Assembly: GCA_038049695.1 (NCBI GenBank)
Contig: CP142455.1
Span: 27,379,501-27,443,500 of the forward strand
Reading direction: 5' to 3'
DNA from: Cinnamomum chago
Taxonomy: Eukaryota; Streptophyta; Magnoliopsida; Laurales; Lauraceae
Length of the DNA: 64,000 bases
Shown here: in pieces, positions 8,561-45,735 of the stretch
Layout: every line of letters begins with the position of its first letter
How positions within the stretch are numbered: position 1 is the first letter of the stretch
Notes under the pieces: model-generated
Databases searched by the model: none
What the model saw: only the letters and a program-made list of their open reading frames with translations
What the model was told of the DNA's origin: nothing
Program-made: the position numbers and the translations under genes

Positions 8561-8627
8561 AAATGAAGGTAGTTGGGAGTGGTTTTCTTGGGAAGAGGGC
8601 TGGAGGTTATCTTGGGAAGGGGGCTGC

Positions 8628-12021: not shown

Positions 12022-12027
12022 TAAAAT

Positions 12028-17872: not shown

Positions 17873-17882
17873 ATGCAAAGAA

Positions 17883-19399: not shown

Positions 19400-19510
19400 T
19401 CCGATCGATCGGCCTGTCTGCCCGATTGATCAGATCTGGGACGAATCCCAGTTCCATTTCAGCTTTGAAGCTGCTTCTTTCTCAGGACAGACAGATTGCT
19501 TAGAGCAACC
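19400..19510. other. Unassigned joint sequence with GATCGATC palindrome
   Basis: About 110 bp between the copia LTR and the LINE fragment. It contains CCGATCGATCGG followed by CGATTGATC. The arrangement resembles the palindrome cluster in the copia leader at 24300, but I cannot assign it to an element. Confidence 0.4.
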
Positions 19511-22911: not shown

Positions 22912-24620
22912 ACATTCAATTAATGAATTTAAATGACATTAGGGTTTAGTATTCTACCAAATTTATATGGAATCCTCATAACCATTAAATTCAGAATACA
23001 TCGGAATCCCAATCCCCGGGGTATGCCTCCTTGGGGAGTGCGAATACCACCTAGATTGGTGCGGATCAAAGTTGGTCAAATTTAGGATTAAGGCTAACTT
23101 TCCATGATCCCCTTCATTCATTATTATCTAGGTATCTCATACCAAATAATGTATGACTCCCGATTTGCTTTGGTTTCTAAAATAAATGAGGCAAATCCCT
23201 GGGGATACTACATCATTATTTTAGTTAAGTGTGACCCACCAACTAGCATTGAATGACAACCGTTGCGAGCAGCTCCTCCTTGGGGAGTGGGCCCCCGCCC
23301 CGTCTCACCAACACTATCCATAGGAGATCCATATCTAGTAGCCAGACAAGTAAAAGCCCTCCGTGGGGAACGGCCATTCTCAAGATGGCGCGAGGCTAAT
23401 ACTTTCCTTACAATGGACCTATGGTGGAAAACCATGGGGATTTCTAAATATAGATGGCCCGCTCCCACTTAATATTTTAGAATTGAGGATTTCTTTGTAA
23501 GGTATTAGGGCCCCATATATGAATATATGAATATCAAATCATCTTATGATATGATCTAAGATTGGTTCCAAGTCAAGTTATTTTTAAGGAAAGTGTAGTT
23601 TCTAAATTAGTGTTACCAATGTGTCCATCTCATGGGTCATAAACACTAATTAGAACTCTTTCCAAAAATTAATTTGATTTGACCAATTTTAGTAACTTGC
23701 TATGTTTGGATCAGATCTGGAATTTTTCTAATTTAAGCATGCATCCATAAATAGAAATTGCAAAAATAGGAACTAGTCCTCTCCTCCACATGGCCCAAGC
23801 GGAATAGACTTCTTGGACTTCTAGACTTTCCAAAATTTGGAATTCCTCAAACTCTTTGGGAAACTCCAGAACTCTTTTGGTAATCTTCAAACTCTTTGAT
23901 TAGGAGTCCAACATCGCTTTCCTTCTTCATCTCGGACATCGCCAGAATTTACAATTTTTTTTTAGAAAAAGATTACATAAATGTCTATGCCTCAATTATG
24001 AGACTTACATGGTAATCTAAAACTGGAATTAAAAGGCTTTAGGAAAATTCATCATGCCTTGCCCTTTCACGGGAAACCAAGGAAACCATGACGCCCTTTA
24101 CATATAGCCTTAAATAAACCAATCACCATAAAAGAAAGCATAAGACTTGTGGGCCATATGGAGAGGATAAGATCACCTGCAAGTTAGTATCTAATACAAC
24201 CATACAAATCACAAAAATAGGCTGCCAAACAATGTTGGAAAAATAGGAAGAGAAAATAGACAAAAAACAAAAAAAAAAACAGTTTCTGCAGAAATTCTGC
24301 AGAAGGCCCGGTTAACCGGCCTGCAAGTCAGCCGGTTAACCGGGCACGGGGCCCGGTTGACCGGCCTGACGAATTTCTGCAGTTGGGTTTTCTTGTTTCT
24401 CGTCCAATCTTTCCCAAATCACTTCCAAAGTGCACCAATGGCTTCCTATGATCCTTCCATCATTATTAAACCCTTTTGTGACTTTCCAAACATGAATTTA
24501 CTATCAAACCAAGCAAATTCATTATTTTGATCCATACATAGCCCTTGTCTCATCTTCTTCACATCTCATGCAAAGGTTAGAGCAAGCTTGCTGGTCTAAC
24601 ATGATTAGAGATGAGGTTAG
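22912..24620 (-). other. Copia 5' leader, no gene
   Basis: About 1.7 kb between the primer site and gag. It includes CTCCTTGGGGAGTG repeated near 23030 and 23275, and the GGTTAACC palindromes at 24307-24366. Short open frames around 23200-23470 have no recognisable domain. Confidence 0.6.
24307..24366. repeat. Cluster of GGTTAACC palindromes in the copia leader
   Basis: Two CCGGTTAACCGG-type palindromes and one near copy (CGGTTGACCGG) lie within 60 bp, flanked by CTGCAGAA words. In element orientation they sit about 270-330 bases after the primer site. A role in RNA dimerisation is possible but is inference. Confidence 0.6.
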
Positions 24621-24632
24621 GCTCTGATACCA
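24621..24632 (-). other. Copia primer-binding site (initiator tRNA-Met type)
   Basis: Minus-strand TGGTATCAGAGC, two bases inside the LTR edge at 24635. It fixes the orientation of the element and identifies the right-hand LTR as the 5' LTR. Confidence 0.85.
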
Positions 24633-24634
24633 AT

Positions 24635-26394
24635 TGTTGGAATATAGGTGGGCTTTCCATGACAGGTTTCAAAAACTTTTGACCCACTTAATGCAGGGAT
24701 CAATTGTATAGAATGCATCAAACCCAATCCAGGATGCGTTTTCCTCAATCTCATAGCCATGTACAGCAACAAACACTATCTCTAAGATAGAAAACAGAAC
24801 ATAAACATGCTTCCACGAAATCCACAACATACATGGATGTAGATATACCTTGGGAGCTTTGTTGTGCTCTAATGGAGGATTTGATTTCTTCTCTTTGGTG
24901 ATGAACAACTTCACTTTCCAAATCAGAATCTTCAACTCCTTTTGATCTTCCAACGCTATGTCCCGTATCAGATTTCTTTTCTCAAGAAGATGGTGGAATC
25001 CTCAAGAGAAAACCCTACTAATAACTCTATGGAACCAAAGGTGAAAGGGAGGGGAAGTTTGAGAAGAAGAGAACTTGTACAACTCTTGCACAAGGGGCTG
25101 AAAATTGCACTATGAATTATGCACGAATTTGAGAGGAGTATTCCTCTATTTATAGCCCTCCATAACTCCTCTTTTCCTATTTGAAATAGAAGTTTAACTC
25201 CCATTACAAATAAGTAAACTTCTCCCTTACTAATTGCCATAGAAGTCCTACTTCCATAACTACTAGTAACTTTCTCCTTTCTAATTAAAATAGAAGTCTT
25301 ACTTCCATTATTAATTAGTAGCTTACCATTACCACTATTAGAAGTCTCACTTCAAATAAAAAAGGTAACCTTCCTTTTAGAGTTCAAGTAGAATTAGTAT
25401 CTTCTAATAAATTGGGCTAGCGTGGGGACCACTAGGGATTCCTTAGAAAGCTGGCTCCAACTGGGACACGCGACCCCACATCTCATGTGTAATCCGGGCC
25501 CACAGTTAATTGCAAATAACTCCACTATATAAATGCAATTGAACTCCAGTCTTAGGAATATATTTCAATTAAGACCCTAAACTTCCACAGTACCACAAGT
25601 AGGCCTCTCCATCTATATCCATGGATCAGATAGACCGTCCTCCAAATTAGATCCATATCTTATTATCCTTGAGCCCCAATTAATTATAGTAATCATTTGG
25701 TACCGATCCAATTAACTCTTAATCGGACTGGGTGCGCACTTACCAATGATAAATCCATTAATTGGCACAAGGGAATATTTAAGATAGATTCCTTCTTGAC
25801 TATTGAATGTTCTCACAGTTCTACTACCACGTACCCAAATCACCGAGGTGTTGACCTACAATTGGCCTCACTCATTGGTGACTCAAAGCAAATGAATAGA
25901 TAGAAACTTGAGTTCATTAATGTCTCAGGATTATGAGCCTATTGCTAGGGAATTATGAGAGCAGACCTTAATAATAAAGACAGTGTATATAAGGTGCTTC
26001 TCATGGTCCTTCAATACATCCAATGTACCAGCATCATGATCCAGAATCTTACATTCCGATGATCGAGATAAATCATACTATCTCATAGTGATCAAAATGC
26101 TGCAACCTTGTCAGATGAGGTGTCCAGTCTCATCACTGGTTGTGAAGATATTTTAAGTATAAGATTTGTGACATATATCTCCCGTATGTGGATCTCATCC
26201 ATATACATATATCACATCTAATATACTAATGGGACCCAGTTCATCTCATGAACCATTATGTCATATATATTGGTCATGTGCATTAAGTAATAAATCACCA
26301 TTCATCTCATGAAAGGAAAGCATGATTATATTGATAAATAAAGAATTTAATCAATCTATTCATCATATACTGGTATTGAGACCATATAATCTAT
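24635..26394 (-). repeat. Copia 5' LTR (about 1.76 kb)
   Basis: The inner edge is TGTTGGAATATAGG beside the primer site. The outer edge near 26394 (GACCATATAATCTA) lacks the last three bases seen in the other copy and adjoins the leader of element B. It is clearly diverged from the copy at 17883-19399, with many substitutions and small indels, so it is older than the Tekay element. Open frames inside are not genes. Confidence 0.78.
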
Positions 26395-26478
26395 TCATCA
26401 TATTCCATTTATGATCACCATATTCTCGTGATTACTAATGGATATGGTCTTGTTTCAGAAGTTTTCCAAAAACTAACA

Positions 26479-27399
26479 ATGGCAGCTTCATTAACCATCA
26501 CCTTTGATGAGAACAAGTACCAGCTGATGCTTCAAGAGAAGCAAACCAAGCGCACCTACAAGCGCCCCGCCAGTTGTCAAAGAATTACCACCCTTGGCGA
26601 CTCCCAGAACAGCGGGTCGACCTTAACTCCCCGGACCATCGTCTTCGGGTCGCTGGGACCATTCCCACTTCCCGTAGAAGAAAATGCAACTGCCAAGAAG
26701 CAGAAAACTGCCATCGGACATGTCGCTGCTCCGACACCAAAGGTGGCCATCAGAAAACCTGAAGCCCATGGTAACCCTACGAAGCCTCAACCTACAAGAA
26801 ACCAGGTCTGCTCAAAGACTTGGTCTCCAAGACCTTCACCCAAACAAAGAAGGTCACAAACACCTGCAAAGCCAGCATACCTGGCCCCGCTCAAGGAGAA
26901 CCGGTTCTACCCTCTCGCATACATGAAAGAGGAGAAACCTACCCTCCACCAAACAAGAAAACCAACTCAGCACGAGCCGGCTTGCTCCTACAAGCCCAAA
27001 ATCAAGTCATGCATCATCAGGCCTCCGGAAGAACCTACAAAGGCCTGCACTCCTGCGAGTCGACCCTTCCTCTCAACAGGGGCCGAACTCGCCAAATTCA
27101 AAGCTTCGCTGCGACAGGCAAAGGACCGCGTCCAGATCCTGTCACTGTCAGTCTTCAAAGAAGACAAGCTCGGCTGCTGCGCACCAGGGACTACGTCCTT
27201 TATTACCAGAGCACAGCCAGAGCTAACCGAAGCTCAAATCACTCGTCGTATGCACCGCCGCGCGGCATATCGACAAAAGAGACTAGAGAAGCAAAGAACC
27301 CAGGATTCTGCACTTCAGGTCTCCCAAAAATGGGTCGAAAAAGAAAAACCCGACCAAGTTGTTGTTGTCCATATGGTTGGCAAAACCAGAAAACGCTAG
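26479..27399 (+). CDS. Element B ORF1, upstream of gag (306 aa)
   Basis: Starts MAASLTITFDENKYQLML, conserved with copy A, which supports this start over the in-frame upstream one. It is basic and proline-rich. PLKENRFYPLAYMKEEKP lies near residue 145, and the C-terminal third has a charged, helix-prone stretch (ITRRMHRRAAYRQKRLEKQ). No known domain is recognised. It ends at a single TAG (27397-27399), and the same frame continues straight into gag, so the stop may be a mutation or a read-through point. Comparable ORFs of unknown role precede gag in Ogre elements. Confidence 0.7.
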   Translation: MAASLTITFDENKYQLMLQEKQTKRTYKRPASCQRITTLGDSQNSGSTLTPRTIVFGSLGPFPLPVEENATAKKQKTAIGHVAAPTPKVAIRKPEAHGNPTKPQPTRNQVCSKTWSPRPSPKQRRSQTPAKPAYLAPLKENRFYPLAYMKEEKPTLHQTRKPTQHEPACSYKPKIKSCIIRPPEEPTKACTPASRPFLSTGAELAKFKASLRQAKDRVQILSLSVFKEDKLGCCAPGTTSFITRAQPELTEAQITRRMHRRAAYRQKRLEKQRTQDSALQVSQKWVEKEKPDQVVVVHMVGKTRKR

Positions 27400-30300
27400 A
27401 AGTCAGCAACAAAAATCCATGTTAGGCGTCCGGTGACTCGCAGCGTCTCCCGGACACGAAGACATAAAGAAAACTCTCCCGCTCCTTCAAGCCAAGGATA
27501 TCGGAGTAACCACTCTTCGAGCTCTTCATCTAAAAGAATGAGCTCCAGCTCAGTCACCAAGACAATATCTTCATTCAACTCTCGAGGAATGAACGTCCTG
27601 GTCACAAATACTGAGCAACCTCCACCACATGATGACGTAGCTGCACGCATCCAGCAGCTGGAACAAGGACAGCAGAGAATAGAGGCCCTAATGGAAAACC
27701 TCCTTCTCACTATCCAACGTCTGCCAAACAATGAAGCTCCTCCGAGCCATCAAGGCGATGAGGAAAATGCGGAAAACAGTGAGTCACGCGCCCTTACCAA
27801 AAAGGACGTTGACGATATCCTCGCCAAAGCAAAAGAAGAGGATACACTAAAGGAGCATGGGATCAAGCCACCATATCCCTTGTGGATGGACTCGGTCCCG
27901 TTCCCTACAAAATTCAAGCAACCTACTATCCAAACATATACGGGGAAAGGTTCAGCCAGACAGCACGTCATCCATTTCAAGATCCTGACGGGAGCTATTG
28001 CGGATCAAGATGCCCTCAAAATCCGCCTCTTTGCAAGTACCCTAAAAGGTACGGCCTTTGATTGGTACTCCACTCTGCCGGAGGACTCCATTCAAAATTG
28101 TGCCATGCTGGAGACACGCTTCCTAACCCACTTCAAAGGTGAGGATCATCCTGTTACTATGGCTCAGCTCTGCAGCCTAAAACAGGGAGAGAATGAGTCA
28201 ACATATGACTTCATTCATAAGTGGAAGGCAATGGCATACAAATGCTCCGATGTACTGCCACAAGCGTCACTGGTCGACATCTGCCGAAACAACATGAGAG
28301 CAAGAATCCGCTCCATGATCATCGGCAACAAATCAAAGAACCTGGGAGAACTCCTGGAAGCAGCTATGGAAGCTGAAACGGTGATCAAAGACCTCAACAG
28401 TCAGAAATCATCAAAGAAAGAGCCAACTGCCATTGCAACCTCAAAACCAAAGAAAAAGGAGGTTCTCAATGTGCAAACCAAGTCAGCTCCTCAGCAGCCA
28501 AAGAAAGCTGAAAACAAAGATGCAGGTAAAAAGCCTGAACTCTCTGATGCCTTCAAAGAACGAGTAGAGAAGAAATACCCGTTCGATGAAGATGTTGAAG
28601 AAATCTTTGGGGCACTTCTCGCAAACGGTAAACTCACCTTGCCTGACCCCAAAAGACCAAGAGATGTTGGCAAAACCAACGATCCTCGGTTCTGTCCATA
28701 CCATCAGATGGTCTCGCATCCTCTCAGTCAATGCTTTGTTGTGAGAGAGAAGATAAATGAGATGTGGAAAAATGGAGTCATTACCTTCGACAAGAACTAT
28801 GGGTCTGCCTCCGTCAACATGGTGTCGTGTGGACAAAAACAAAAATCACCAAAAGAGAAGATCACTACTTCCTTCAAGGTGATAAAGATGACCCAAACGT
28901 CCCAAAAGTTGGTTCCATATCCAACATCAGACGGACAGCCCATATGGGTACACCCCGATATCCTAGAAGATGAAAATTGGGAGGTCGTCAAAACAAAGCC
29001 AACCGCTCGACAGCGAAGGCAAGCCAGGAGACAACTCCGCAAGCTCAAACAGCAGGAGAAAGCTCCGAAAAAGCAAGAACTCACTGAAAGGGCAGAGACC
29101 TCCTCCACCGCTTCACTGGGGACAACAGAAGAGTCCTCTCCTAAGACTTCAAAGGCGGCAAGAAGATTCACTCTTGGTGATTTCATGCCACCACACCTCA
29201 AAGAAGAAACTATGCAAGGGGCATCATACTCTTGCAACTCGGTGGTCGGATTCCCCATGGATGGATACGAGTCCAGTGACACCGCCAGTGACATCGATGA
29301 ATGGGAGGAATCCCTGAAAACAGGAGAATATCTCTCCGACGAGGAATGGATCCCTGAATCTTATCTTATGCCAGTAATCTGGTATAACCCATTACAGCAG
29401 CAAGGATCCTCGTCTGATGATGAAGAAGACCAAGAGGCTGTTCAAGAAAACACTCCAGTGGAACCCAGCCATGTTGAACCACAAGGAGCAGACGAAGAAG
29501 AAGATTTGGCTCCCGTGCCTGATCTCGATGAATACGCAAGGATCTTGCAGCACCTTGCTATAGAGCAAGAACAAGGTCGCATTAATCAGCTTCGTCACAA
29601 CCCAGCACCGGAAGTTCCTGAAAATCTACAGGAATCTCCTCCGGTAACCCCGGAAAACGAAGAAAGCTGTTGGATCGATGATCCTCCTACATCTGAGGAC
29701 GAATCTGATTCCCAACAGTTCATCTTAGAGGCATCTTCCGTCAAAGTTACTTACAATGCAATAGTTCAGGATGATAATTCATCACCTTCTCAAGCTTCGT
29801 CTCCTGGAACAGTAACATCGGAACTCAAACCTCTTCCGACTGATCACCTTGAAGAAATTCCAGCCAGTGAAATCTTCTTCAGAGAAAATCCGGTCAATTG
29901 GTCCCAAATGCCCGATCTCATCGGTGATGTCTGGACCAACAAAATATTTGATAAAGAAGGAAAGTTGCTGGATGCTGTTCAGGACTTGCTCCCGGAAAAT
30001 GCTCCATGCAACACAATTACTGAAGATGGCAATGCTGACACAGAGACATCTTCAGCAAATGAGGAGGAACAACCCCTCGATCTTGAGGATGATCTTCCAA
30101 ACAAAGACCCTTCTCCAGAAGCTCTTGAAGTTGGTAGAGGTACCCGTTCTGGCCGGGATTACCACAAAAACTACAACCAACCTTCTGCTTCTTATGCCAA
30201 TCCTTCGGGAAAACAAGCTGTAAACGCCCGTAGTAGCAAGAATAATGAAAATGCAGGCCCCGAGGATGCTTTCAAGTACGACTTGATTCAATACTTCAAA

Positions 30301-30426
30301 CACATACCTGCACATCTGCACATCCTAGACTTATTACGAATGTCACCACAGACTCGTGATAATCTCATTTCAGAACTACAAATGCTGGATGCGGATGTCG
30401 ACAAACATGCCCCACAAGTCCTATAA
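27400..30426 (+). CDS. Element B gag polyprotein
   Basis: Open from the ORF1 stop to 30426. The first ATG in this frame is at 27538. The retrotransposon gag (capsid) domain lies at about 27890-28390, with FDWYSTLPEDSI and ESTYDFIHKWKAMAYKC. A Cys/His motif, FCPYHQMVSHPLSQC, lies near 28690-28735 in place of a classical knuckle. The C-terminal half is acidic and low-complexity, ending with LLRMSPQTRDNLISEL and HAPQVL. It forms the virus-like particle and packages the element RNA. A copy of the C-terminus is present in element A at 4480-4965. Unlike pol, the frame is unbroken. Confidence 0.82.
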   Translation, partial: KSATKIHVRRPVTRSVSRTRRHKENSPAPSSQGYRSNHSSSSSSKRMSSSSVTKTISSFNSRGMNVLVTNTEQPPPHDDVAARIQQLEQGQQRIEALMENLLLTIQRLPNNEAPPSHQGDEENAENSESRALTKKDVDDILAKAKEEDTLKEHGIKPPYPLWMDSVPFPTKFKQPTIQTYTGKGSARQHVIHFKILTGAIADQDALKIRLFASTLKGTAFDWYSTLPEDSIQNCAMLETRFLTHFKGEDHPVTMAQLCSLKQGENESTYDFIHKWKAMAYKCSDVLPQASLVDICRNNMRARIRSMIIGNKSKNLGELLEAAMEAETVIKDLNSQKSSKKEPTAIATSKPKKKEVLNVQTKSAPQQPKKAENKDAGKKPELSDAFKERVEKKYPFDEDVEEIFGALLANGKLTLPDPKRPRDVGKTNDPRFCPYHQMVSHPLSQCFVVREKINEMWKNGVITFDKNYGSASVNMVSCGQKQKSPKEKITTSFKVIKMTQTSQKLVPYPTSDGQPIWVHPDILEDENWEVVKTKPTARQRRQARRQLRKLKQQEKAPKKQELTERAETSSTASLGTTEESSPKTSKAARRFTLGDFMPPHLKEETMQGASYSCNSVVGFPMDGYESSDTASDIDEWEESLKTGEYLSDEEWIPESYLMPVIWYNPLQQQGSSSDDEEDQEAVQENTPVEPSHVEPQGADEEEDLAPVPDLDEYARILQHLAIEQEQGRINQLRHNPAPEVPENLQESPPVTPENEESCWIDDPPTSEDESDSQQFILEASSVKVTYNAIVQDDNSSPSQASSPGTVTSELKPLPTDHLEEIPASEIFFRENPVNWSQMPDLIGDVWTNKIFDKEGKLLDAVQDLLPENAPCNTITEDGNADTETSSANEEEQPLDLEDDLPNKDPSPEALEVGRGTRSGRDYHKNYNQPSASYANPSGKQAVNARSSKNNENAGPEDAFKYDLIQYFKHIPAHLHILDLLRMSPQTRDNLISELQMLDADVDKHAPQVL

Positions 30427-31025
30427 ATTGAAATGGACTATAGGGTCAAAAAATCGAAAACTCCCTCAAAAGGAGAAAGAAGAAAACTGAGGTATCCTGC
30501 ATCGAATGCCTCTCGATTCAAAAAGCAGCAAGTGCAACCATCGCCTTCACCAAGGAAGACCTCCTGCTAGGCGAGACAAAGCATAACCGACCCCTGTACT
30601 TCACCGGGTACATCAAAGAGGTGCCAGTACGCAGAATCCAGATCGATCCAGGTTCTGCACTCAACCTCATCTCCACTTCGGCACTCGAAGAACTGGGCAT
30701 TCCGCCTAGCAAGCTGAGTCACACGTCTTTGTCCATCTTTGGATATGATGGCAGCGCTCAAAGGTCGATCGGCAAAATCAGGTTCAAGTTGCAAATCGGT
30801 GATCTTATCTCCGAGGTCACTGTCTATGCAATAAAGACCCCTTCATGCTACAACATCCTTCTCGTACGCCCCTGGATACACGAGAATGGTGTTGTCCCTT
30901 CGACTTTACATCAGTGCATCAAGTTCGTTGGCAATGACGGCTTGATTCATCGAGTGTTTGCAGAAAAAAAAGCCCTTCAAAGGCAAAGAAGTCTATTTTG
31001 CAGATGCTCAGATGTACAAAGATGA
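30427..31025 (+). pseudogene. Element B protease
   Basis: Aspartic protease of the polyprotein. The catalytic loop reads IDPGSALNLIS near 30645-30675, followed by PSKLSHTSLSIFGYDG and PSCYNILLVRPWIH, the typical end of a gypsy protease. The frame is reached only after a shift from the gag frame between 30430 and 30500. It breaks again at a run of eight A residues (about 30963-30970) where copy A has one base fewer or a C. Copy A reads LLGRPWIH where B has LLVRPWIH. Confidence 0.75.
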
Positions 31026-32130
31026 AAAAGAAGAAAGGGAGGAAGAAACAGCACCCTTTGCCGAAAATCTCCAGAAAGACAAAGGCAAGGCTCCTCAGCA
31101 ATCACCAGAAGAAAACAAACCCTCTATCAAAACCGAAGAGAATAATCAATCTCCCTTCATGGTCTCCCTCAAGTCTTCAAAGCCTCTAGTGATCACCACC
31201 AAAGCAAAGAAGACAAAACAAAAGGCTGGGGGCAAGTTAGCTGTCTCCTTCGTGTCTATCTTGCAAGACACGGATTCGGACTCAGAGCCAGAAGACGACA
31301 CATCGTCAAGCCAAGCTGATGATCAACAAGTTCAACCCGCTCTCACTCCGATGGAGACAACCGTTGACATAGAAGATCCGGCATCTGCTTCCTTCGTTGT
31401 TCCAGCAACATCAGGAGAAGAAAACCCAATCTTCTTCCATAAATCGGGAGTTTCTTCATCAAATTCTTCGCTTGAACCTTTCCAAAATGAAGGTATGCCT
31501 TAACTATCCCTATATAGTCCAATGGCACAAGCTATCATGAAGAAATTGGGCTTCGACGCTCGGAACCCAATCGGTTTGGGAGGTGGCCGTGGTATTATCA
31601 CGCCATTGGAACCAACCCTGACCAAAAGTCAACTGGAAGGTTGGAAACCCCACCGCCACATAGAAAAGTCTTCACATGGCCTGGGGTATGATCCTGACGC
31701 TCCCTTGAGACAGTTGACACAAAGGCTGCAAAGTCATCTTGCTGACCAAGCCTCAACATCTCATATTAATGAAGACATCGATCTCCCCGGATATCTCTTT
31801 GAAGAGTCACCCGTCGAAGATTCAGGAAGCTCACCCAATTGGTATGATTTCTCGGAAGATGAAGAGGAATTGACCGATGATACGGATACACGATTTTCTA
31901 GCCCAGAAGAACCATCATCTCCAAAAGAAGTGCCCTACTTCGACCTAGTTTCAACAGGTGATTGGAACCATCTCTTAGCAAATCTTGATAAAAGTACCAA
32001 TCAAGAAGACCCATGGACAAAAGCAGAGCCGTGGTCTGTAGATACCTTTGGAACTCCAGAAGGCTTTGTTGGGCTGGAAGCTTCCAAAAATATTATGGAG
32101 GAACCACCTTCAAACCTTCCAACTGAAGAT
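30958..32130 (+). pseudogene. Element B acidic linker with G-patch-like segment
   Basis: Between protease and RT. First a Lys/Glu-rich then Ser/Asp-rich low-complexity stretch, a TAA at 31501 where copy A has CAA (Gln), then MAQAIMKKLGFDARNPIGLG (from 31522) with GGGRGI after it. The glycine pattern resembles a G-patch. An acidic region with SSHG and DEEELTDDTD stretches leads into the RT. The segment is conserved between A and B, suggesting past function, perhaps RNA binding next to the protease. Confidence 0.65.
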
Positions 32131-32919
32131 TCTGTTCAAAAGATAGACTTGGGAAAACCTGATAACCCACGTCCTGTATTCATAAGCAAGAATATAAAGG
32201 ATGATGAGTTACCCGAGTATATCGCGTTTCTTTATGAGTTCGTTGATTCTTTTGCATGGTCTTACGCTGAGATACCTGGCTTAGACCCCAAAATAGCAGT
32301 CCACAAACTCAATCTTCAAAAAGATATCAAGCCTGTCAAACAAGGCCAAAGGAGGTTCCGTCCTGACGTGATGGACAAAATTGAACAAGAAGTTCAAAAA
32401 TTCAAAAGCGTTGGCTTCATCCGTGAGGAACAACATCCTGAATGGTTGGCCAACATCATCCCCGTGACAAAGAAAAATGGGCAAATCAGGATCTGCATTG
32501 ATTACAGAGACCTGAACAATGCATGCCCAAAAGATGAATTCCCGCTCCCTATACCGGAGGTGATGATCGACAACACCTGTGGGTTCGAGCGAATGACATT
32601 CATGGATGGCTTCTCTGGCTACAATCAGATAAAGATGCATCCTGAAGATGAAAAACACGCAGCATTTCAGACCCCGTTTGGCGTGTATTGCTACTCTGTC
32701 ATGCCATTTGGTCTGAAGAATGCCGGCGCTACATATCAGAGGGCTATGATGAAGATATTCCAAGATATGCAGCACAAGACGGTCGAATGTTATGTCGATG
32801 ACCTCGCCGTCAAAAGCAAAAGAAAAGAAGACCATCTCAAAGATCTTCGAGAAGTCTTCCTCCGACTTCGTAAACATAAACTGCGAATGAATACCCTCAA
32901 ATGCTTCTTCGGTGTTTGA
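32131..32919 (+). pseudogene. Element B reverse transcriptase
   Basis: RT motifs are FVDSFAWSYAEIPGLDP (near 32240), ICIDYRDLNNACPKDEFP (from about 32490), FMDGFSGYNQIKMHPED, MPFGLKNAGATYQRAM and the catalytic YVDD at 32791-32802. It ends KCFFGV followed by TGA at 32917-32919, where copy A encodes Ser (TCA). The frame continues on the other side (SGKFLGFIV), so this is a point nonsense change. It would copy element RNA to DNA. Confidence 0.85.
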
Positions 32920-33903
32920 TCGGGTAAGTTCCTCGGATTCATAGTTCGGAAAATCGGAATAGAACTTGACCCCATCAAAGTCAAGGCTATCTTAAAAATG
33001 CCATCTCCAAGAACCCTAAGACAATTAAAAGGGCTCCAAGGAAGATTGGCATACATTCGACGGTTCATCTCCAACCTATCAGGGAAGTGTCGTCCATTCT
33101 CTCGGTTAATGAAGAAAGGTGTCGATTTTGTCTGGGATGCTGAATGTGAAGCCGTGTTCCAGGACATCAAGTCATACCTGACTAAACCTCCAGTGTTGGC
33201 TGCCCCCACAACTGGAAAACCATTCCTCTTGTACACAAGAGCCCTTGACTGTTCTTTAGGCGCTCTACTCGCACAAAAGAATGACGAGGGAAAAGAAGCT
33301 GCTCTATATTACCTTAGCTGCATGTTGATAGGTGTAGAGCATCGCTACTCTCCAGTCGAAAAAGAATGCTTGGCAGTGATGTTCGCCGTACAAAAACTGC
33401 GTCACTACCTGCTATCCAACACAGTGTACCTGATTTCGAGGATCAACCTCCTAAAGGTCCTTGTCACAAAAGCAGGTTCTCTCAATGTCCAACTGGCAAA
33501 ATGGTCCATCCTCCTGTCACAATTTGACATTAGGTATGTACCACAAAAAGCAATCAAAGGCCAAGCTCTAGCAGACTTCCTCGCGGAGCATCCATTGCCT
33601 AAAGATTCTCCACTCAGGGATGACCTCCCAGACGAACAGGTCTACAATGTGGAGACTTCCTTATCAAATGCTTCCTGGCACATGTACTTCGATGGCGCAA
33701 CCAGGACAAATGAAAAGGGAAATCAAATATCGGGAATTGGCATTCTCTTTGTTAGTCCCGACAAATACATGATTCCACACGCATTCTCGCTACTGGAACC
33801 ATGTTCAAACAATGCAGCTGAGTACCAAGCCCTCATCGTAGGATTAGAGCTCACCTTGAATCCGGCATCACTACGCTGGAAGCTTTTGGAGACTCTCAAC
33901 TGA
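32920..33903 (+). pseudogene. Element B RNase H and archaeal-type RNase H
   Basis: In frame with the RT once the TGA is passed. RNase H (about 33120-33600) contains LLYTRALDCSLGALL and VEHRYSPVEKECLAVMFAVQ. The conserved first acidic position looks altered (TRAL where TDAS is usual). Archaeal-type RNase H begins at about 33680 (MYFDGATRTNEKG) with NNAAEYQALIVGLEL. A one-base loss near 33853 breaks the frame just before GDSQLI. The two RNase H domains in tandem mark the Tat lineage. Confidence 0.8.
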
Positions 33904-35467
33904 TCATCAAGCAGATGAATCAGAAATTTGAAGTTAGGAAGCCCGATCTGTTGCCTTACTACAACAAGGCACAATCGCTTCGACAAAAGTTCGACATCTG
34001 TCACATCACCCACATCCTCAGAGGTGAAAACATTCGTGCAGATGCCCTGGCTGGACTTGCTGCGTCTATGGCAATCCAAGAAGGGGAAAACATGCAAGTT
34101 ACAGTGTGTCAAAAAAGGATTCTCCCTCCTCTCAACACACATCAAGCAGTTGCTGAATGCAACCAGGTGGTTGGAAGTCGGATCTCCGTCCTTAAACCTC
34201 TGATCGGTGACTGGAGGGATCCGTTCATTGATTACATCATGTTCCGAATCCTACCTGAGGATCCAAAAGAGCGGGTAAGCATCCAAAGGCGAACCCCAAA
34301 CTATCATTTGGATATTCCTTCAAAAATGCTTTGTAGGAAATCCTACAATGGAGTACTTCTACGCTGCTTGTCACAACAAGAGGCTGATGAAACACTCAAA
34401 GAAGTACATGCTGGTCTTTGTGGAGCCCATCAGGCTGGGCCTAAGCTCTACGATCAGATAAAAGGGTTAGGTTATTATTGGCCTACCATGGTGGCTGATG
34501 CAATGCAATTTGCTAAGCGCTGCCAACAATGCCAAGTTCATGGAGATTATGTCCACATGCCTCCGGAATGGCTACATCCTACAGCAATCTCATGGCCTTT
34601 GAAGCCTGGGGTATGGACATCATAGGTCCTATCTCCCCTCCATCAAGCAAAGGTCATCGCTTCATCTTCGCTGCTACGGATTATTTCTCCAAGTGGTCAG
34701 AAGCATTCGCGCTCAACGAAATGAAGACCTCATCAGTCCTTCAGTTCTTGCGCACCAATATAATTTGTCGCTTCGGCATACCTAAAAGATTCATCTATGA
34801 TAACGGACCACAGTTCCGCGATCACCGATTCTACAGGTTCTGCGACAAATACAAAATCCAAAGTTGTCCTTCAACTCCGTACAATCCGGCAGCGAATGGA
34901 CTAGCAGAGGCTTTCAACAAAACGCTCTGTAAAATCCTCAAGAAAATGGTCTCTAGTCACAAAAGAGATTGGGGCGACAAACTGCCTGAAGCTCTGTGGG
35001 CCTATCGAACCACCGTTCGAGGACCAACCCATAGCACACCATTCTCCTTGGTCTATGGATGCGAAGTTGTTGTCCCTTTGGAAGTTCAAATTCCTTCCTT
35101 AAGGGTATCTCTGCAAAATGACATGACGCAAGAAAGCAAAGTCAAATTGAGACTCCAAGAGCTGGATAACCTCGATGAGAGACGACTCGAAGCTCTACAA
35201 AGCATTGAACTCTACCAAGCACGCATGGCAGGATATTTTGACAAGAAGGTCAGGCAACGCGCCTACAAAAAGGGAGACTTGGTTCTTACAGTAAAAAGAC
35301 CAATGGTTTTTGCCAACAAATCCAAAGGCAAATTTGAACCAAAATGGGAGGGACCTTTCGTCATCAACAAAGTCTTCTCCAACGGCGCATACGCTCTTCT
35401 AAACATGGAGGGTGACAGATGTATGCTGCCTATCAATGGAAAGTTCTTGAAGCGGTACTACCCTTGA
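33904..35467 (+). pseudogene. Element B integrase
   Basis: A linker (MNQKFEVRKPDLLPYY, 33915 onward) leads to the HHCC finger (about 34405-34545: HAGLCGAHQAG ... CQQCQVH). The core contains WGMDIIGP (about 34610), DNGPQFRD (about 34800) and NGLAEAFNK with the catalytic Glu (about 34900), spaced as in DD35E integrases. A one-base loss near 34593 splits the frame between finger and core. The C-terminus has KKGDLVLTVKRP and ends LKRYYP followed by TGA. No chromodomain is present, as expected for Tat. Confidence 0.85.
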
Positions 35468-36086: not shown

Positions 36087-36238
36087 AGGGAAGCGACGCT
36101 TAGTCGATACTTGCACCCAAATCCGCGAGGAGGCGACATTCCATCGATACTCGCAACCGAATGAGCAAGGAGGCGACATTCCATCGATACTTGCAATACC
36201 ATTCAGCAGGGAGGCGACTTTTTAGTCAATACTTGCAT
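36087..36238. repeat. Tandem repeat, about 50 bp unit
   Basis: About three to four units built on GGAGGCGACATTCCATCGAT followed by ACTCGCAA or ACTTGCAA. Diverged relatives occur upstream at about 35845 and 36035. The array directly precedes the 22 bp array. Confidence 0.7.
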
Positions 36239-36239
36239 T

Positions 36240-36945
36240 TTTGAAAACAAGAAACCTGGCTTTCACGCCAAAAAAAAAAAAAACAGGCTTCCATGCCAAA
36301 AATCTGGCTTTCACGCCAAAAAACCAAAAACATGGCTTTCACGCCAAAAACTCGGCTTTTATGCCAAAAATCAAAATTCAGCTTCCATGCCAACAAAACA
36401 AAACTCGGTTTTCTAAAAAAAAAATTTTGGCTTTCATGCCAAAAACAAAAAATCTGGCTTCCATGCCAAAAATAAATTTTGGCTTTCATGCCAAAAACAA
36501 AATCTGGTTCTTACACCAAAAACAAAACCTGCTCTCATGCCACAAACCAAATCTTGGCTCTCATGCCACAAAAAATCTTTGGCTCCCATGCCATCTCAAA
36601 CTCGGCTTTCATGCCATTTTAAAAAAAAATCGGCTTTTACGCCACAAAAACCGGCTTTCATGCCACCCCAAAAAAAAATCGGCTTTCATGCCACCTCAAA
36701 ATTCGGCTTTCATGCCATCTCAAAAAAAAGTTGGCTCTCATGCCATCCCAAATTTTGGCTTTCATGCCACCAAAATCGGTTTTCATGCCACCTCAAAATT
36801 TCGGCTTCCACGCCATCCAAAATTTTGGCTCTCATGCCATAAACCCAAATTTCGGCTTTCATGCCATCTCGAAATTCGGCTTTCAAACCACACAAAAAAA
36901 AAACCCTGGCTTTTGCCGCAAAATCTGGCTTTCATGCCAAAACAA
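36240..36945. repeat. Minisatellite, about 17-26 bp unit built on GGCTTTCATGCCA
   Basis: About 30 units of the core GGCTTTCATGCCA separated by A-rich spacers of varying length. The core is an imperfect inverted repeat (GGC ... GCC). Apparent open frames here simply spell the repeat as a periodic peptide (GFHA, LAFMP). Unit length drifts along the array. Position: between pol and the antisense gene of a Tat element. Confidence 0.85.
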
Positions 36946-37144: not shown

Positions 37145-40100
37145 TCAGTCTAGCATGGTCTTCAACCAAAGATCCAGCTCCTCAAGTAGACTCTTGGCCT
37201 TAGCCTCTAAAGCTTCCAGGCCGCGCTTCTTCAAGATCTTGCCATAAAATACGGCAGAACGCCGCGACCCATCTTCGGCACAAGGAAGCTCTTCCCAGAG
37301 AATTTGCCACTGTTCATACTCCTGAGTCTTTCTCTGAAGGTTGCTACCGGCTTCTTCAACTTGGCGAATCAGAATTCCCTCTTTAGCACGGGCTTCTACA
37401 ATGGCAGTCCATTTGGCAGCACTTTGTTCTTACAATTGCTCAAGGCGCTGCCTAACTTCTGCGACCTCCCTATCAAGACGGCGCAGGTCCTGTGTTAGCT
37501 CAATGATAGCCAACTCGGTAACGTTCCTCTCTCGAACGAATTGCTTCCGAGCCCATGAGATCTCATCCATTTCAGATTTGATCTTACCGGATGGCTGTAA
37601 AAATATCTCATTAAAGAAGTCACCGCTTGGGAAATTCTTGGTCTCAGTCCATTTGTCGCCTAAAGCAATGACTTCATCAACAAAGGCCTTGGCACTTGCA
37701 ATGTCCAGACCGACCTCTGCACTGTCAGCAAGGATGTCCTGTACATGCTTAACCATGCCAAAAGCAACTTCCAAATGGCCAGAAGAGAGAGTTTCAACCC
37801 ATGTGCTCAGCACACTCTTCAACACCTTCTTTGCATACTGAAGGGATGGTCTAGATGGAGATTCACCACGCTCTGTTGGCTGACTGCCCATGTCAGGCCG
37901 TGGTGGAGGGAAATCAAAAGGCTCTTTCCAATCGGAGCCACTGAAGAAGCAATATCACTACAAAGTCCTGCCTCTACCGTGACGGGACTGGTAGAAGAAG
38001 CCCCTACTTCTGGATCGGCTGCTGGCATCTCCTGCTCTGGCCCTGAGGAAGACGAAGGAACTTCTCCTGTTGCTTCACAACCTGCTGGCAAAAAACACAG
38101 GAAAAGGTATGAATATGATCTTGTCAAAAAAAAAATTCAATGTCAAGATTATCATTATGAAATACCTTCTTCCATAGATGGCTCGAAGTCGGAACCCTCT
38201 GGCAAGTCAGCTGACAAGAAAACAAAAATATGTGTCAGCAAATTCGAAAAAAAAAATCATCCTCATACCAGGTGGAGATTCTGGGTCCTCCCCAGAGTCC
38301 CTCAATTCTTCTTCAGATGCCGCAACTGGATCCATCACCGCCTCATCGACAGGAACCTCGGGTATCACCAAGTTTTCATCTTCTGCAAAAGAAAGAAAAC
38401 AGCAGATCAAAAAAAAATCCCTCATAAACGGAAAGAAGCGGAAATAGAAAAGAAGGAGAATCATACCAACATCGGCGGTCTCTTCTTCACGACCCCTCTT
38501 CTCTGGAGGCTCATCAGCATCTCCTGATACCTCCACAGCAATGGTAGGAGGGACTTCCAGATCAGGAGAGTCTTCTTGGCGTCTCACAGTGCGAAACTGT
38601 CCTCTCCTCCTCTTTTTTCTACGAGCCGGTCTACTTGAAGTACCTGCCTCACTGTCAAAGTCAGGACTTCCACTTGGCTCCTCACTGGACGGCCCGCTCC
38701 TACCAGTGGACCCCATGGAAGCCTTCATTCGCTCTGTTTGCATCCAAGTGTCGATATCGGCTTCCTTCTCCTCGAGTTGTCTCAAGACCTCAGCAGGTAT
38801 CTCTTGTGCGGCTCCGGATCTGATGACATCCTGTTCCTCAAGAAAGCCTATCCTATGCTTCTCTCCAGAAAGGAAGAACAAAACTTCCTCTCGACGGACG
38901 CCATCTGATCTACCAAGACCCTTCCCAGGAGATTGCTTGACATTCAGCTCCTTCTTGGAAAGCCCTCGGTACACAGTAAAGCTCTCCACGAACCATTTCG
39001 TGAAGCCAGCAGTCCGGAAAGTGGGCAACTCAGGATAGGAAATCATAGCAGTGGTGTCTTCTGCACTATAGAAGGCCCATGCATTTCTTTCGTCCTGCAA
39101 ACCTCCAAAGCGCTTCACCATGCTCGAAGGCGCTCCAACAACGCCTTGAGAGAAGCCTAACTGCAACGCAAAACGCGAACGGACATACGGCTGGATGTCA
39201 ACAAAAAGATGTCTGCGGTACACATCGTGCCAACACATATGTTTAAAAGCCACCTTTTCTCTGCGTTGGTCAAAGATTAGTGTCTTCCCGATCCTGCCCT
39301 GGTGGAATCACGGGAGACACCAAAATCAAAAGCCTTCTTCCGCAAATCCGGAGAAAGCTTCACTGAAGATTGCCCAATCTCGACGTCCCTGAATCGTCGG
39401 ATTCTCAAGCGGGCAGACAAAAGAGATTCGAAAACGGTTTTTCCCCTAGCCAACCGAATCATGAAAGGGTCATCATCATCCTGTGAGGCGCCTAAATGGT
39501 GAAAGCCAGGACAGTGGTACACATACCACGAATAGAAAATATGGGCTGAAAATACTCTATTCATGGGAAGCCCAAGCCGGACCAAGAAAGCAGCTGCCTG
39601 CAGTTTGGTACATAAATACGAGTAAAGAGCCGGCACCAAAGCTAGCTGCTCTCCAAACGCCATCTGACAAGCTGGAAAAATACAATGCGGCCTGATGTGC
39701 GTCCCATCTCCTCCAGCAAAGACAGCCTCACCTAGCCAGTAAGTGAGGTACATAGCGAGATCTCCTCGCAGCACAATGTCGGAACAAATGGCGTTTGTGC
39801 TTGCGAAGAATTCCCTCAGATTTTCTCACATAACGGAGATCTTCTTCGAAGCCAGATTCTTCTCAGAAGATTCTCCACTGCCAAAGAAGTTGGGAGATAA
39901 AGAGCCAAAATTCTTCCAACTGCTGCACCGGACTTTCGAGCCCTCCTTCTCCTTCAAAAAATCGTAGAAGGTGACGAGCTAAAAGTACAAAAGCCTGAAC
40001 TCCTCAGACCGCTCCTCAAGGACGCTGTCGATCGACATAAATTCCTCATAGAGTTTGCCGAGGATGGGCAGCCCGGTAATGGCACTCAGCTCCTTCAAAG

Positions 40101-41882
40101 AAAAATCAATCTCACCATTCGTAACAATGAAGGTGTTAGTTTGTGGAAGGAAAGACTCCAGCATGGCCATAAAAGCCTCATCGGAGAAAACTACGGTTTG
40201 CCTAAAAGCGCGAACCGCATAAAAAATCTCGGCCTCCTTCAGAATGGCACCACCAATCTGCAGGATGTGATCAGTCCACGACTCCCAGCTCGAGTCAACA
40301 CTGAAACGGCCACGAAGTCGAAAAGGCTTCACTCAATTGCTGCCATCACCCCTGAAAATGCCAAGGCCCACCGGTCTCAAATCAACCGATGGATGATCAG
40401 ATCCTTGGTAGCCGCTGGCCGGCATCAACATGTCCAAACGGACAGGCGACTTCTCTGCATAACCAGAAGGACCGCCAACAAAAACCCCGGTCTTGACCAC
40501 ATTGGTCCTCTTCACCCAGCTTAGAGGATCTTCTCTCTTAGAGCATGTGGGAGGAATACTCATGATCGAAATAGAACGATCAAAAGTCGATCAGGTAGAA
40601 ATGGTTCTCTCCTCACCATCAGCTGTGTAAGAGAATTGAAAGCATCTCCTTTGGTATGACGAGTCATCAGGGGCTGCATCACCAAAGAAAAAGGTAGGCT
40701 TGGGCACAACGCTCTGATCGTCCATGACCCAAGGACGATTGCTTGCCATAATCTTGTAGAACTCCTCATCCTTGAGAGCGATCAGTCGCTGTCTCATCTC
40801 ATCTCGGTTGAGCGAGTCACACTCTTCCAAGTTTCTCTCCACATACTGGACCTTCTCCCAGGCCTGTTGTACGGCCACATTGGAAGATCTGGCAGATTGA
40901 CGAGGTACATCGGTAATGGGCTCCTTACCCTTGTTCGTTCTGGAGGAACTACCTGCAAAGATTGAAAGAAAGAAATCAATCAAGAGAATGACAGGATTTT
41001 GCTAAAAAAAAAAATCCTAGCGAAATTTTGGCATGACTCCGGGGCAAAAGAAAAGGGAATCACCCCGAAAAGAAATGAAGCCTGAAGATGAGCTCAACAT
41101 CGCTGCGAGCTCATGATCAATGAAGGATTCTCAAAGAAGACTCGAACTCAAACATTGCTGCGAGATCAAGTTAGTCTTCTCAAATCTCCGCAGGATCGGA
41201 AAAAAGCTCAACATTGCTGCGAGCTTTAAATTCCAGAACTTGCAAAGCTCCTCAAAATCCCGCAAGACTAGGAAAGAGCTCAACATTGCTGCGAGCTTCA
41301 AATCCCAAGACTTTCAAAAGATTTTCAGGTGTGCATCATCATGCTCCCAATCCAATTTACAAAAAATCATGCATAAAAAAAAATCATCATCATGCATTAG
41401 ACGCTAGGAAAACTTTGACAAAAAATTTGACCAATTCCAGCCCAACTTGGTCAAAACCAATCAAACTTTGTCTAAGTCAAAATTCATGTTGGCTTAACCT
41501 AGAGACTCTAACTTTCCATCTTGATGCATAAAAAAAAAGTATGTGCATGAACATCTTGGATTGCATGAACCTCATTATCACGGTGAGCAAAAAAAAAAAT
41601 AGAGAGAGAGAAAACCTCATTCAAAAAAAAATTTCTGGGCTGGCCCGCAGCCCATGCCCCACAGGCCGTGGCCCACAAGCCACGTGGCTGTACGGTCCAG
41701 GCCGTACAGGCCTGGTCGTACAGCAGCAAGAAAAAAAAAGAGAAAAAACAAAAGAAAAAAAAACGTGAAAAAAAAGGAAAACACGTGAAAAAAAAAAGAA
41801 AAAAAGAAGAAAAAAAAATGAAATGATGAAACTTTCTATTACATAGAATTTCTTGTAAAAAGAAAAACTTACTTGAAGCCAT
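37145..41882 (-). pseudogene. Antisense plant mobile domain (PMD)-like gene inside element B, 5 exons
   Basis: Antisense to gag-pol. Proposed exons: 41882-41873, 40952-38467, 38382-38269, 38210-38166 and 38081-37145. Each intron has GT..AG ends, the first with a perfect GTAAGT donor, and all four introns are in phase 1. The start reads M-A-S across intron 1 into a Ser run. PMD-type motifs in exon 2 are QTNTFIVTNGEIDFSLKEL with AITGLPILG (about 40100-40040), then RGDLAMYLTYWLGEAVF and FPACQMAFGEQLALVPAL (about 39770-39630). Exon 2 ends basic (RPARRKKRRRGQ); exon 5 ends in a Leu/Glu-rich, coiled-coil-like tail. Breaks are TGA at 40591 and 40333, TAG at 39979, TGA at 39826, a frameshift near 39310 and one near 37925. 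About 1,190 codons if unbroken. Antisense ORFs at this place are known in Tat/Retand elements; PMD proteins of plants act in silencing. Confidence 0.8.
41091..41300. repeat. Tandem repeat, about 55-68 bp unit, in intron 1 of the antisense gene
   Basis: The core CTCAACATTGCTGCGAGCT recurs four times (near 41093, 41149, 41209 and 41279) with related spacers. It lies wholly within the 920 bp first intron. Confidence 0.75.
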
Positions 41883-42625
41883 GGAGAAGAAGAAGAAGAA
41901 CTTGAAGGTCTTTGAAGAAGAGGAGATCTTGGAGCTCCCTTGAAGACTTTTGCAAAAAGAAAGCAATAGGAGCAAGAGATCCCACCTCCCTTGCTTTTAT
42001 AGAAGAAAGCAAACCAAAAGAGGAAAGAGGAGAAAAGTAAGGAGGTAAGTGCTAAAAATTAGCAACCTTCCCAAAAAAAAAGGAAACTTGAGATATTCTC
42101 TCCCAAAACAAAGATTCATTGAAAAATTCTCTCCAAAAAGAAAGAGAATGATAGATATTCTCTCCCAAAGAAAGATATTTTGAGAGAATCTCTCCCAAAA
42201 TCAAGGAAACTTGAGAAAATCTCTCAAAGTAAGGATATTTTTAGATATTCTCCACCCAAAGGAGATATGTTTAGATATTCTCTACAAAAACGACACCATG
42301 TGAGATCTAAGCCATCTTTCAAAGCTTAAGGTCCCATGGGTTAGCCCATATGAGCCAGGTTTGACCACCTAGGCACTAAAAGTGGCTTTTAGTCAAAATT
42401 CCTCTTACCAAGAGCATACAAAAAAAAAATCGTTCCATGCCTCTTTTGAGTTGATTGGACCATACAAAAATCCAAGCTTCATGAGTTTCCAAAAATCCAA
42501 ACCATCCCACCTCATGAACCAAACTAAGCCAAAATCTTGAAATTGACATTCCACAAAAACCCAAACCACTCCAATGGACCCAAAATTGTCCCAAAGAGTG
42601 AACCCAAAAACCAAACCATGGTCCC
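41301..42625. other. Rest of intron 1, antisense 5' end and spacer of element B
   Basis: A/T-rich, with homopolymer A runs (41600-41820) and repeated GAGATATTCTCTCCC/AAAGA words (42090-42290). Apart from the antisense first exon and TATA box I see no gene here. A short GC-rich island at 41640-41720 contains repeated GGCC and GTACAG words. Confidence 0.6.
41994..42001 (-). promoter_or_regulatory. TATA box of the antisense PMD-like gene
   Basis: Minus-strand CTATAAAAGC at 42002-41993. It lies 112 bases before the proposed ATG at 41882, leaving an 80-90 base 5' UTR rich in CTTCTTC. It is independent of the LTR promoter. Confidence 0.55.
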
Positions 42626-42810
42626 CTAACTCGCCACATACAGCTTCTTAGGTCACAAGACCAAAACCAAAAATCAAAACCCGACCCCCTAACTTGCCAC
42701 ATACAGCCTGTTAGGTCACAAGGTCAAAACCAAAACCAAAAACCTGACCCTCTAACCTGCCACATACAGCTTGTTAGGTCACAAGGTCAAAATCAAAACC
42801 AAAAAACCAA
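42626..42810. repeat. Tandem repeat, 63 bp unit, three copies
   Basis: CTAAC(T/C)(C/T)GCCACATACAGC begins at 42626, 42689 and 42752, an exact 63-base period. The rest of the unit (TTAGGTCACAAGGTCAAAACC) is well conserved, and A/C-rich flanks fade at both ends. Confidence 0.88.
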
Positions 42811-43025: not shown

Positions 43026-45735
43026 TGTTGACACCAAAAATGTCACTTTGCCTCTTCACACCAAAAGCTACATGGAGCCACATCCTACCCCAAATAGGCA
43101 GGCGCCACTTCAAGCATCAGATCTTGTCAAAATCAAACAAAAACTGTAAGGTCATTCAAAACAGCCAAAAGAGATGTACACATGAAGTTTCGGGCCATTC
43201 CGACATCATTTGGCCTAACTTCACTTCTCCAACAGCTGAGCAGCAACTCCCGGCGGCGACAGTGTCGAAGACTTCAAATCTTCGATCAGAGCCTACGGAT
43301 GGTCTCAAAATACCTCCGAAAGGCTACATGTCAAGTTTCAAGTCAAACCGACACTGTTTGACCCTCCATCAACTCTCGAGCAGCGAAATCAAGCCCTTAG
43401 GTAGCGAGAATTACCGAGCCCATCACTCATCAAACGGAGCACATGGGCGGCTTCTACATACCTCCAAAGGGCTGCATAACAAATTTCAGGTCATTCCGAT
43501 GACATTTGACCCAGTTTCGATGCTCGGAAACAAAATCAAGCTTACCGGCAGCAGAGCACCCCGGGACTATGGCACCCAAATTCAAAGCTTGTGGATCATC
43601 TCAAAATGACTCCAGTAGGCTCCCCATCAAATTTCAGGTCAATCGGACATCCTTTGACCAGAAGTCAAAGCTCGGCATTTCCCTCGCGGTGAAATAAAGG
43701 CAAGCGTTTGCCTGACCCCAAACAGCTTCAAAACTCAAACGAAAGCCTATGGTTGGTCTTATCTACTGATGAGGGAGTCACACGTCGAATTTCAGGTCAA
43801 TCGAACATCGTTTGACCAAAAGTCAAAGCTCGGCATTTCCCTCGTGGTGAAATTAAAGTCAAGCGTTTGCGGGACCCCAAACGGCTTCAAAACCTGAACA
43901 AAAGCTTATGGTTGGTCTCGTCTACTACTCAAGAAGCTACACATCGAATTTCTGGTCATTCCGACATCGTTTGCCCTAGTTTCGACGCTTGACAAAAAAT
44001 CGGGAGTTCTCCACAGCAAAGTCTTCGGCTTTGCAGAAAATGGGAAACTTTGCGATCCGATTTGCATGGCTTCTCGTCAGGTTTTCTTGAGGGAAATCCA
44101 GCTATAAATGAGAGGAAATTCCAAGAAAAATGCAGGAGAAAATAGAAGCAGAAAAGGACGAAAAACGAAGAAGAAAAGGCGACCGGAAGGCGGCCGACCA
44201 TGGGGCACAAACCCCATGGTCGCCGGCCCCATGGTCGTCGGCGACCATGGAGGTCCGGGCCGCCGGACCTCACCCAAAAACCCCGTTTTTCGGGTATCTT
44301 TCGCGTTCCGAGTTGATTGGCCCCTGTGATTTTTCCAAATTCTGATTTTTTGAGCATGAAATCCGTCGATCTTCGTCGACATCGTGGATCCGCCGCCGGA
44401 ATCATGGAATCATCATCCGACACCTCAAAATTGTCAACCGACCGATCAAGAAAATGCACTTTCTGCCCGACTGATAGAGAAATCGACTGGACAGATGTCG
44501 CCGGCTTGTTGATATTAATCAAAGTCTGAAATTGCATGATCATCCGATGTCGATCAACATGAAGATCCATCGATGATCATCGCCAAAAGAATTCCAAAGG
44601 ACGCGGCGCGGCCCGTGACTCTTCAAACGACCGGGAGACCATTTAATGTTGTTAATTGACTTGTTTATGACAACTTATTACAGTCATTAACTCATTATCT
44701 TGGACGGCCCAATCAGAAGCAAGCAAATGGGAGTTACAAGTCCAAGTAATCATGACATTAAAATCATGAAACTCCCATCATCATGGAGATTAAAGGTGAT
44801 TAAATGCCCATTACTCTCCATCGGCCAATCAAATTCAAGGAAAAAGGAGTTACCAAATCAAGAAATTAAAAACTTGTAACTCCTCCCATCATGAGCATTA
44901 ATACCATAAATGCTCATAAACTCTCCTAAATGGCTACCAAATGCCTATAAATAGGAGGCCATTCCAAGGAAAACAGAAGAAGAAAAATTATCCAAAAACT
45001 CTCCGAAAAATCCAAGAAAAATCCAGAACCTCTGCAACAAACTCTCCTCTATTGAAGAAAACTCTGTTGCAACAAGCACTACAAGGTGATCAAAGCCCCT
45101 TGGGGGGCCACCCCCCAAAGGCCACCTCTCCTTCTATTCAACATGGCTAGATGTGGCTTTTCAGCCCGTCTACTCAGCTTTTTACCGGATATAGGACCTT
45201 ACCTTGGTCCTTATCCTCTAAAAATCTGAGGTTGGAGCCAAGCCAAGAAATCAAGCATCAAAGTTCTCATCTGAAGGACGATGGCGGAGTCCATACATGA
45301 CTCGCGACCGTCGATCTGAACGGGTCCCCCCACAATCGTATGAAAATTTAGATTCCATTTCTTTCTTTTCTATTGTATTGTATTTTTTCTTAAAGAGACA
45401 CAAAATTCACATTTCTTGTCTTTTCATTATTGATGAGATTTGTAAACTGCCTTTCATGGCAAACAAAGAAAATCGCCTCTCACGGCATTCAAAACAAACT
45501 TGTCTCTTTTCTTTAAAATATGTGTGCAATGGAAAGTTAGGAAAAAGTTGATTTCCTTTCTACTTGTGAAGGTGAAACTCCGGATCACTACTCTAAATTC
45601 CAAGTAGAAAAGAAAATCTGGCATACCCACAAAATGTTGATACCCGCCTTTCTTTCTTCCCTCTCCCTCCTTCCGGACCCCGACAGACCCGGGGTGGATG
45701 GCAGCGGAGGAGGAACGGAGGGGCGCGGTCCATCA
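43026..45735 (+). repeat. Element B 3' LTR (about 2.7 kb)
   Basis: Begins TGTTGACACC and ends near CGGTCCATCA at 45735, where similarity to element A's LTR stops. It is homologous to 15296-17872 read on the other strand. U3 is about 1.9 kb. It contains a TATA box at 44946 and near-repeats of a block around CAAATTTCAGGTCATTCCGA (43190-43990, about five diverged copies). No gene is seen; small frames are shadows. Confidence 0.85.
44946..44952 (+). promoter_or_regulatory. TATA box in element B LTR
   Basis: CCTATAAATAGG, a strong plant TATA box. The matching place in element A reads CTATCAAAGG. Transcription would start near 44980 and run through the R-U5 part that contains the short minisatellite. 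Confidence 0.65.

Follow-up and report, generated by a model that had tools for sequence, protein, structure and literature searches.

An antisense, intron-containing Plant Mobile Domain gene, now decayed, inside a possibly Ogre-like Tat retrotransposon of Cinnamomum chago

Why would a plant retrotransposon carry, on the strand opposite its gag-pol genes, an intron-containing gene whose protein shares a domain with factors that the host uses in transposon silencing? The question is raised by a 64,000-nucleotide stretch of the Cinnamomum chago genome (assembly GCA_038049695.1, contig CP142455.1, positions 27,379,501 to 27,443,500 of the forward strand; hereafter the window), which is plant DNA with nested long terminal repeat (LTR) elements. 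One of them, a Tat-type Ty3/gypsy element on the plus strand (hereafter the carrier), contains between pol and its 3' LTR a five-exon gene model of the Plant Mobile Domain (PMD) family on the minus strand (37145-41882), the exons of which sum to 3595 nt. The coordinates, strand, and exon structure that an initial annotation had proposed for this gene hold. The explanation that we favor, with moderate confidence and from sequence comparison, is that it represents a decayed accessory gene of an Ogre-like Tat element, with its own antisense promoter, about five spliced exons, and a product in which a PMD, a linker with basic and acidic parts, and a coiled tail would serve a nuclear role against host silencing.

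The PMD profile match on which the identity of the gene had been staked was obtained: the exon-2 frame, read with an X at each stop, scored 44.4 bits against the Pfam profile PF10536, above the cut-off of 34.9 bits. Taken as stop-to-stop pieces, two of eight matched the profile, in the right order and both below threshold (25.8 and 22.0 bits). Two protein searches (30 and 39 matches) yielded 39 distinct relatives, the best being 90% identical over the whole query, and these comprised 36 Persea americana (avocado) gene models, two unnamed European Nucleotide Archive proteins (P0002 and P0005), and P0004, which is labelled Yersinia pestis. When five relatives were compared with PF10536, P0002 scored 61.3 bits, P0004 56.6 bits (model positions 1-346 of 347), P0034 42.7 bits, and P0033 20.8 bits, and P0030 gave no match. 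Chance open reading frames (ORFs) are ruled out by the profile score above the cut-off together with the 39 relatives. The record of P0004, an 803-residue plant retrotransposon PMD protein, bears the title 'hypothetical protein [Yersinia pestis]' and belongs to a contig of 4348 bases; it most likely reflects plant DNA contaminating a bacterial assembly.

Other searches added little to this picture. A search limited to the PMD block returned 19 of 47 candidates, all from the same family, and no genic PMD was reached by this word-based search. A sequence search of the PDB with one piece gave only matches at E 0.26 and 0.9, NCBIfam gave a single match for three proteins (E 0.052, far below its cut-off), a scan of viral contigs gave no match, and a scan of genome contigs gave 195 pattern matches and 0 relatives. 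As for the coiled-coil-like tail described initially, a heptad periodicity is present but only moderate, being equalled by 37, 86, and 134 of 5000 shuffles in three avocado relatives.

The exon-intron layout (Table 1) was then compared with the avocado models. All four introns are GT-AG with a high T content (0.42-0.56, versus 0.21-0.27 in exons 2-5), and every junction is in phase 1 when read in its local frame, which bears out the uniform phase that had been predicted; exons 3 and 4 have lengths that are multiples of three. Mapped on the window, the Persea americana models agree with exon 3 at its end and with exons 4 and 5 at their starts; P0027 and P0031 mark where exon 3 begins, and the exon 2 donor differs between models. 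Exon 5 is reached by 14 of the 39 relatives, all avocado models and along the same exons, with exon 3 present in 13 and exon 4 in nine of them (for three of the nine the exon-4 match is weak, at E 0.013-0.044, yet lies at most two residues from exon 3). Five of the 14 have no exon 4, and exon 3 is absent as well from one of these five, P0025; the frame of exon 5 is intact wherever an exon is missing, as anticipated by the earlier suggestion that exons could be gained or lost without a change of frame. The avocado models thus support frame-neutral exons 3 and 4; these models are automatic annotation, in which a skipped exon looks the same as a deleted one or as a choice made in annotation, and alternative splicing is not proven. 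Within intron 1 lies a tandem 72-base repeat (41176-41318, copies 79% identical), and the stretch matching it is the coding start in several avocado models.

Table 1. Features of the carrier element and predicted parts of its antisense gene, in window coordinates
Feature	Position	Strand	Remarks
gag-pol of carrier Tat element	26405..35467	+	Pfam and ORF list
Diverged repeat array, family D1	36238..36939	.	around GGCTTTCATGCCA; 8 copies, ~0.7 kb; between pol and antisense gene
Exon 5	37145-38084 (alternative start 38081)	-	linker end and heptad-like tail, TGA stop; premature stop 37430-37432, frameshift near 37900
Intron 4	38085..38165	-	81 nt, phase 1; tandem acceptor CAGCAG
Exon 4	38166-38210	-	45 nt, frame-neutral; longer (~37 aa) in avocado model P0030
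Intron 3	38211..38268	-	58 nt, short for a plant intron; phase 1; avocado models match both edges
Exon 3	38269-38382	-	114 nt, acidic segment, frame-neutral
Intron 2	38383..38466	-	84 nt, phase 1; P0027 and P0031 agree with the acceptor
Exon 2	38467-40952	-	PMD domain followed by linker, basic (RPARRKKRRRG) and acidic; 5 in-frame stops, 1 frameshift near 39220
Intron 1	40953..41872	-	920 nt, phase 1; GTAAGT donor
Exon 1	41873-41882	-	10 nt, start codon
TATAAAAG, possible core promoter of antisense gene	41994..42001	-	112 nt upstream of ATG
Three tandem 63-base repeats	42594-42782		between antisense promoter and 3' LTR
Carrier 3' LTR	43026..45690	+	right end approximate; starts TGTTGACACC after purine-rich stretch

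In lineage, the carrier belongs to the Tat clade of Ty3/gypsy. The mark of that clade (Ogre/Retand type) is an additional RNase H that lies between the RNase H and integrase domains (Neumann et al. 2019; PMC6317226), and the carrier, in which Pfam identified Retrotrans_gag, Asp_protease_2, RVT_1, RT_RNaseH, RVT_3, Integrase_H2C2, and rve, has such a domain (RVT_3) between RT_RNaseH and Integrase_H2C2/rve. In the same survey a PMD was reported in 57% of Ogre elements and Transposase_28 in 23% of Retand elements. Transposase_28 (PF04195) gave no match on eight antisense pieces (E up to 1; the pieces excluded 38084 to ~37906, at the start of exon 5), and a Retand-type Transposase_28 gene was rejected as an identification of the antisense gene. 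The PMD would point to Ogre rather than Retand. The carrier shares with those Ogre elements that have a pfam10536 extra ORF (PMC6317226) the Tat affiliation, the additional RNase H in this position, a long LTR, and the PMD; that survey used getorf ORFs of at least 250 codons, in which a multi-exon gene would appear in pieces only. A later survey (PMC9289625) cites a tRNA-Arg primer site as an Ogre marker and reports PMD as the most frequent non-canonical domain.

The PMD-A1 and PMD-A2 clades were described as exclusive to Gypsy elements and widespread in angiosperms (Ikeda et al. 2017; PMC5418596), and our gene resembles them in that a PF10536 domain is encoded inside an angiosperm Ty3/gypsy LTR element; by its location between pol and the 3' LTR it is a candidate member of PMD-A. 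The initial suggestion that the element had acquired a host silencing factor is not supported, as PMD-A is exclusive to Gypsy elements and these authors favor domestication of PMD by the host from an element, while leaving the direction open. The layout is also similar to that of Retand (Vicient 2025; PMC11963269), where one or more antisense genes lie between pol and the 3' LTR together with repeat arrays and have SMC-like products in some cases; the domain there is TRP28, whereas here it is PMD, and that paper contains neither the word 'PMD' nor the word 'intron'. We found no description of introns in an antisense PMD gene in the literature searched, although the work on Grande gene23 (Gomez-Orte et al. 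2013) may describe spliced antisense genes. PMD genes in this class of elements are already known; the possible novelty lies in the antisense orientation combined with splicing and with exons 3 and 4 that are frame-neutral.

How could introns persist in an element that replicates through RNA? Introns on the sense strand would be lost when spliced RNA is copied, and antisense introns would survive: the genomic RNA is the opposite strand, so the spliceosome would not see them during retrotransposition and a spliced antisense gene could be kept. The presence of introns also argues against capture of the gene from a processed mRNA. The TATA-like site listed in Table 1 is the sole match to TATAWAWR between 26.3 and 42.9 kb, with about 0.03 (from a shuffle mean of 18.87 per window) or 0.08 (from the 52 observed) such matches expected per 200 bases of one strand. 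A precedent exists in HBZ of retroviruses, which is spliced and encodes a protein unrelated to the PMD protein. Both HBZ and our gene are antisense genes with a promoter of their own in a reverse-transcribing element (the latter putatively), and they differ in that the HBZ promoter lies in the 3' LTR, whereas the TATA-like site here is internal (PMC10186651).

The copy of the antisense gene in the window is dead. It carries two frameshifts (near 39220 and 37900), as the initial annotation had it, and six in-frame stops (lowest base 40591, 40333, 39979, 39826, 39277, and 37430) instead of the four first counted. Elsewhere in the family, P0002 (90% identity to the window frame) and P0004 show no interruption over most of exon 2, with differences at 143 of 736 aligned residues; neutral drift simulated to that distance under two transition biases accumulated 8.8 and 7.6 stops on average, and 0 of 300 runs were stop-free under each. 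Identity to P0004, taken per 40-residue block over 29 of the 38 other relatives, reached 0.80-0.92 for the larger part of the PMD; it was 0.69-0.79 ahead of the domain and dropped to 0.47-0.65 in the linker, which follows residue 640. Such uneven conservation and the stop-free divergent relatives point to a selected protein, and purifying selection on the PMD protein is thus suggested.

Several observations weigh against the explanation that we favor. P0002 and P0004 owe their discovery to their length, which biases the recovered set towards stop-free relatives, and the simulation began from the window sequence with its stops dropped and without insertions or deletions. Residues 281-360 of P0004, which lie within the PMD, are only 0.62-0.68 identical among relatives. 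The protein searches found one family only, and their word filter misses distant PMDs. The AlphaFold model of P0002, built from an alignment of 31 sequences, had a mean pLDDT of 41.5 and was unusable. On the promoter side, the longer motif CTATAAAAG occurs once in the window and also in 44 of 100 shuffles, so its single occurrence is unsurprising by itself. Finally, exon 1 is the weakest part of the gene model and has some support as a minority model: the 10-base exon 1 and GTAAGT donor noted initially agree with two of the nine avocado models extending to the 5' end of exon 2, namely P0037, which starts MASSSSSR as in the window reading, and P0007, which starts MTSSSSSR, while the other seven start otherwise. 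Among these, P0009, P0010, P0013, and P0021 begin within the stretch matching intron 1, P0003 has a similar peptide at its start, and the models P0020 and P0040 begin just upstream of the exon-2 acceptor.

What, then, might the protein have done? In the host, the PMD proteins MAIN and MAIL1 take part in transposon silencing and are binding partners of PP7L (PMC7156037, PMC5418596). They belong to PMD-C, are encoded by ordinary host genes outside LTR elements, and share the PMD with our protein. As they act in transposon silencing, interference with that pathway is our leading guess, and PMD has already been proposed as a counter-silencing tool of transposable elements (PMC8616336). A protein that joins a PMD to a basic/acidic linker and a heptad-like tail would most likely be an accessory factor acting in the nucleus. 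There it would pair with or displace MAIN, MAIL1, or PP7L, and the element might thereby escape MAIN/MAIL1 silencing or be better transcribed, a step of which we are less sure than of the persistence of the introns. In an extension of this scheme that we consider unlikely, the antisense-kept spliced gene would, through exons 3 and 4 in the linker between the PMD and the coil, yield a range of PMD isoforms, whether through alternative splicing or because exons are gained and lost from copy to copy, and so tune its interaction with changing host MAIN/MAIL/PP7L proteins. Open questions in the field are how host PMD proteins silence transposons and in which direction the PMD passed between element and host (PMC5418596); a family of the avocado type, with many copies, an uninterrupted exon 2 in some, readable exons, and gag-pol and PMD together, makes both selection and anti-silencing testable.

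In a less likely alternative, the role of the antisense protein lies within the cycle of the element itself, be it in transcription, in target choice, or in nuclear import of the pre-integration complex, as has been proposed for the antisense proteins of Retand and Grande, with no relation to host silencing. Vicient proposed a regulatory role for the Retand antisense proteins (PMC11963269), which have the same layout as ours, and PMC7264820 cites a localization of Grande GENE23 to the nucleus; the domain here, however, is a PMD, the characterized host relatives of which act in silencing and gene expression, and Transposase_28 was not matched on the eight pieces. A role for antisense transcription itself, through double-stranded RNA, small interfering RNA, or interference with gag-pol and with the protein secondary, was raised in PMC7264820 and would suit a TATA-like site directed towards pol, but we regard it as quite unlikely given the uneven conservation, highest over most PMD blocks and lowest in the linker, and the stop-free divergent relatives. 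That the gene is a neutral passenger tolerated by the region is very unlikely: its six stops and two frameshifts would fit, as would the view of Neumann et al. that the proteins of such extra ORFs are highly divergent and of questionable function (PMC6317226), yet the neutral simulation and uneven conservation speak against it, and the decay is common to pol of the same element, which contains frame changes and at least one in-frame stop, at 32917-32919.

The remainder of the window adds context on the carrier and its neighbors. The leader and possible gag start of the carrier begin at ~26480, followed by an ORF with the gag domain (27400-30426). The carrier's own 5' LTR was not found in the window; a copia-type element (18219-26393, LTRs 86% identical) adjoins the leader and ends where it begins. 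A second Tat element of the same kind occupies 2-17873 on the minus strand, with an LTR of ~2.5 kb (15371-17873), a candidate primer site CGGCGACCCCAGGGACGA near 15354, and its antisense region beyond the window. Its pol is 85% identical to that of the carrier over 4957 aligned columns, its LTR (15371-17873) is 73.5-78.6% identical to the carrier 3' LTR, and dN/dS between the two reverse transcriptase regions is 0.22 over 466 codons. This second element is split by a young chromovirus (4966-13500), which has a weak chromodomain match and LTR stretches that are 99.5% identical over 1463 bases.

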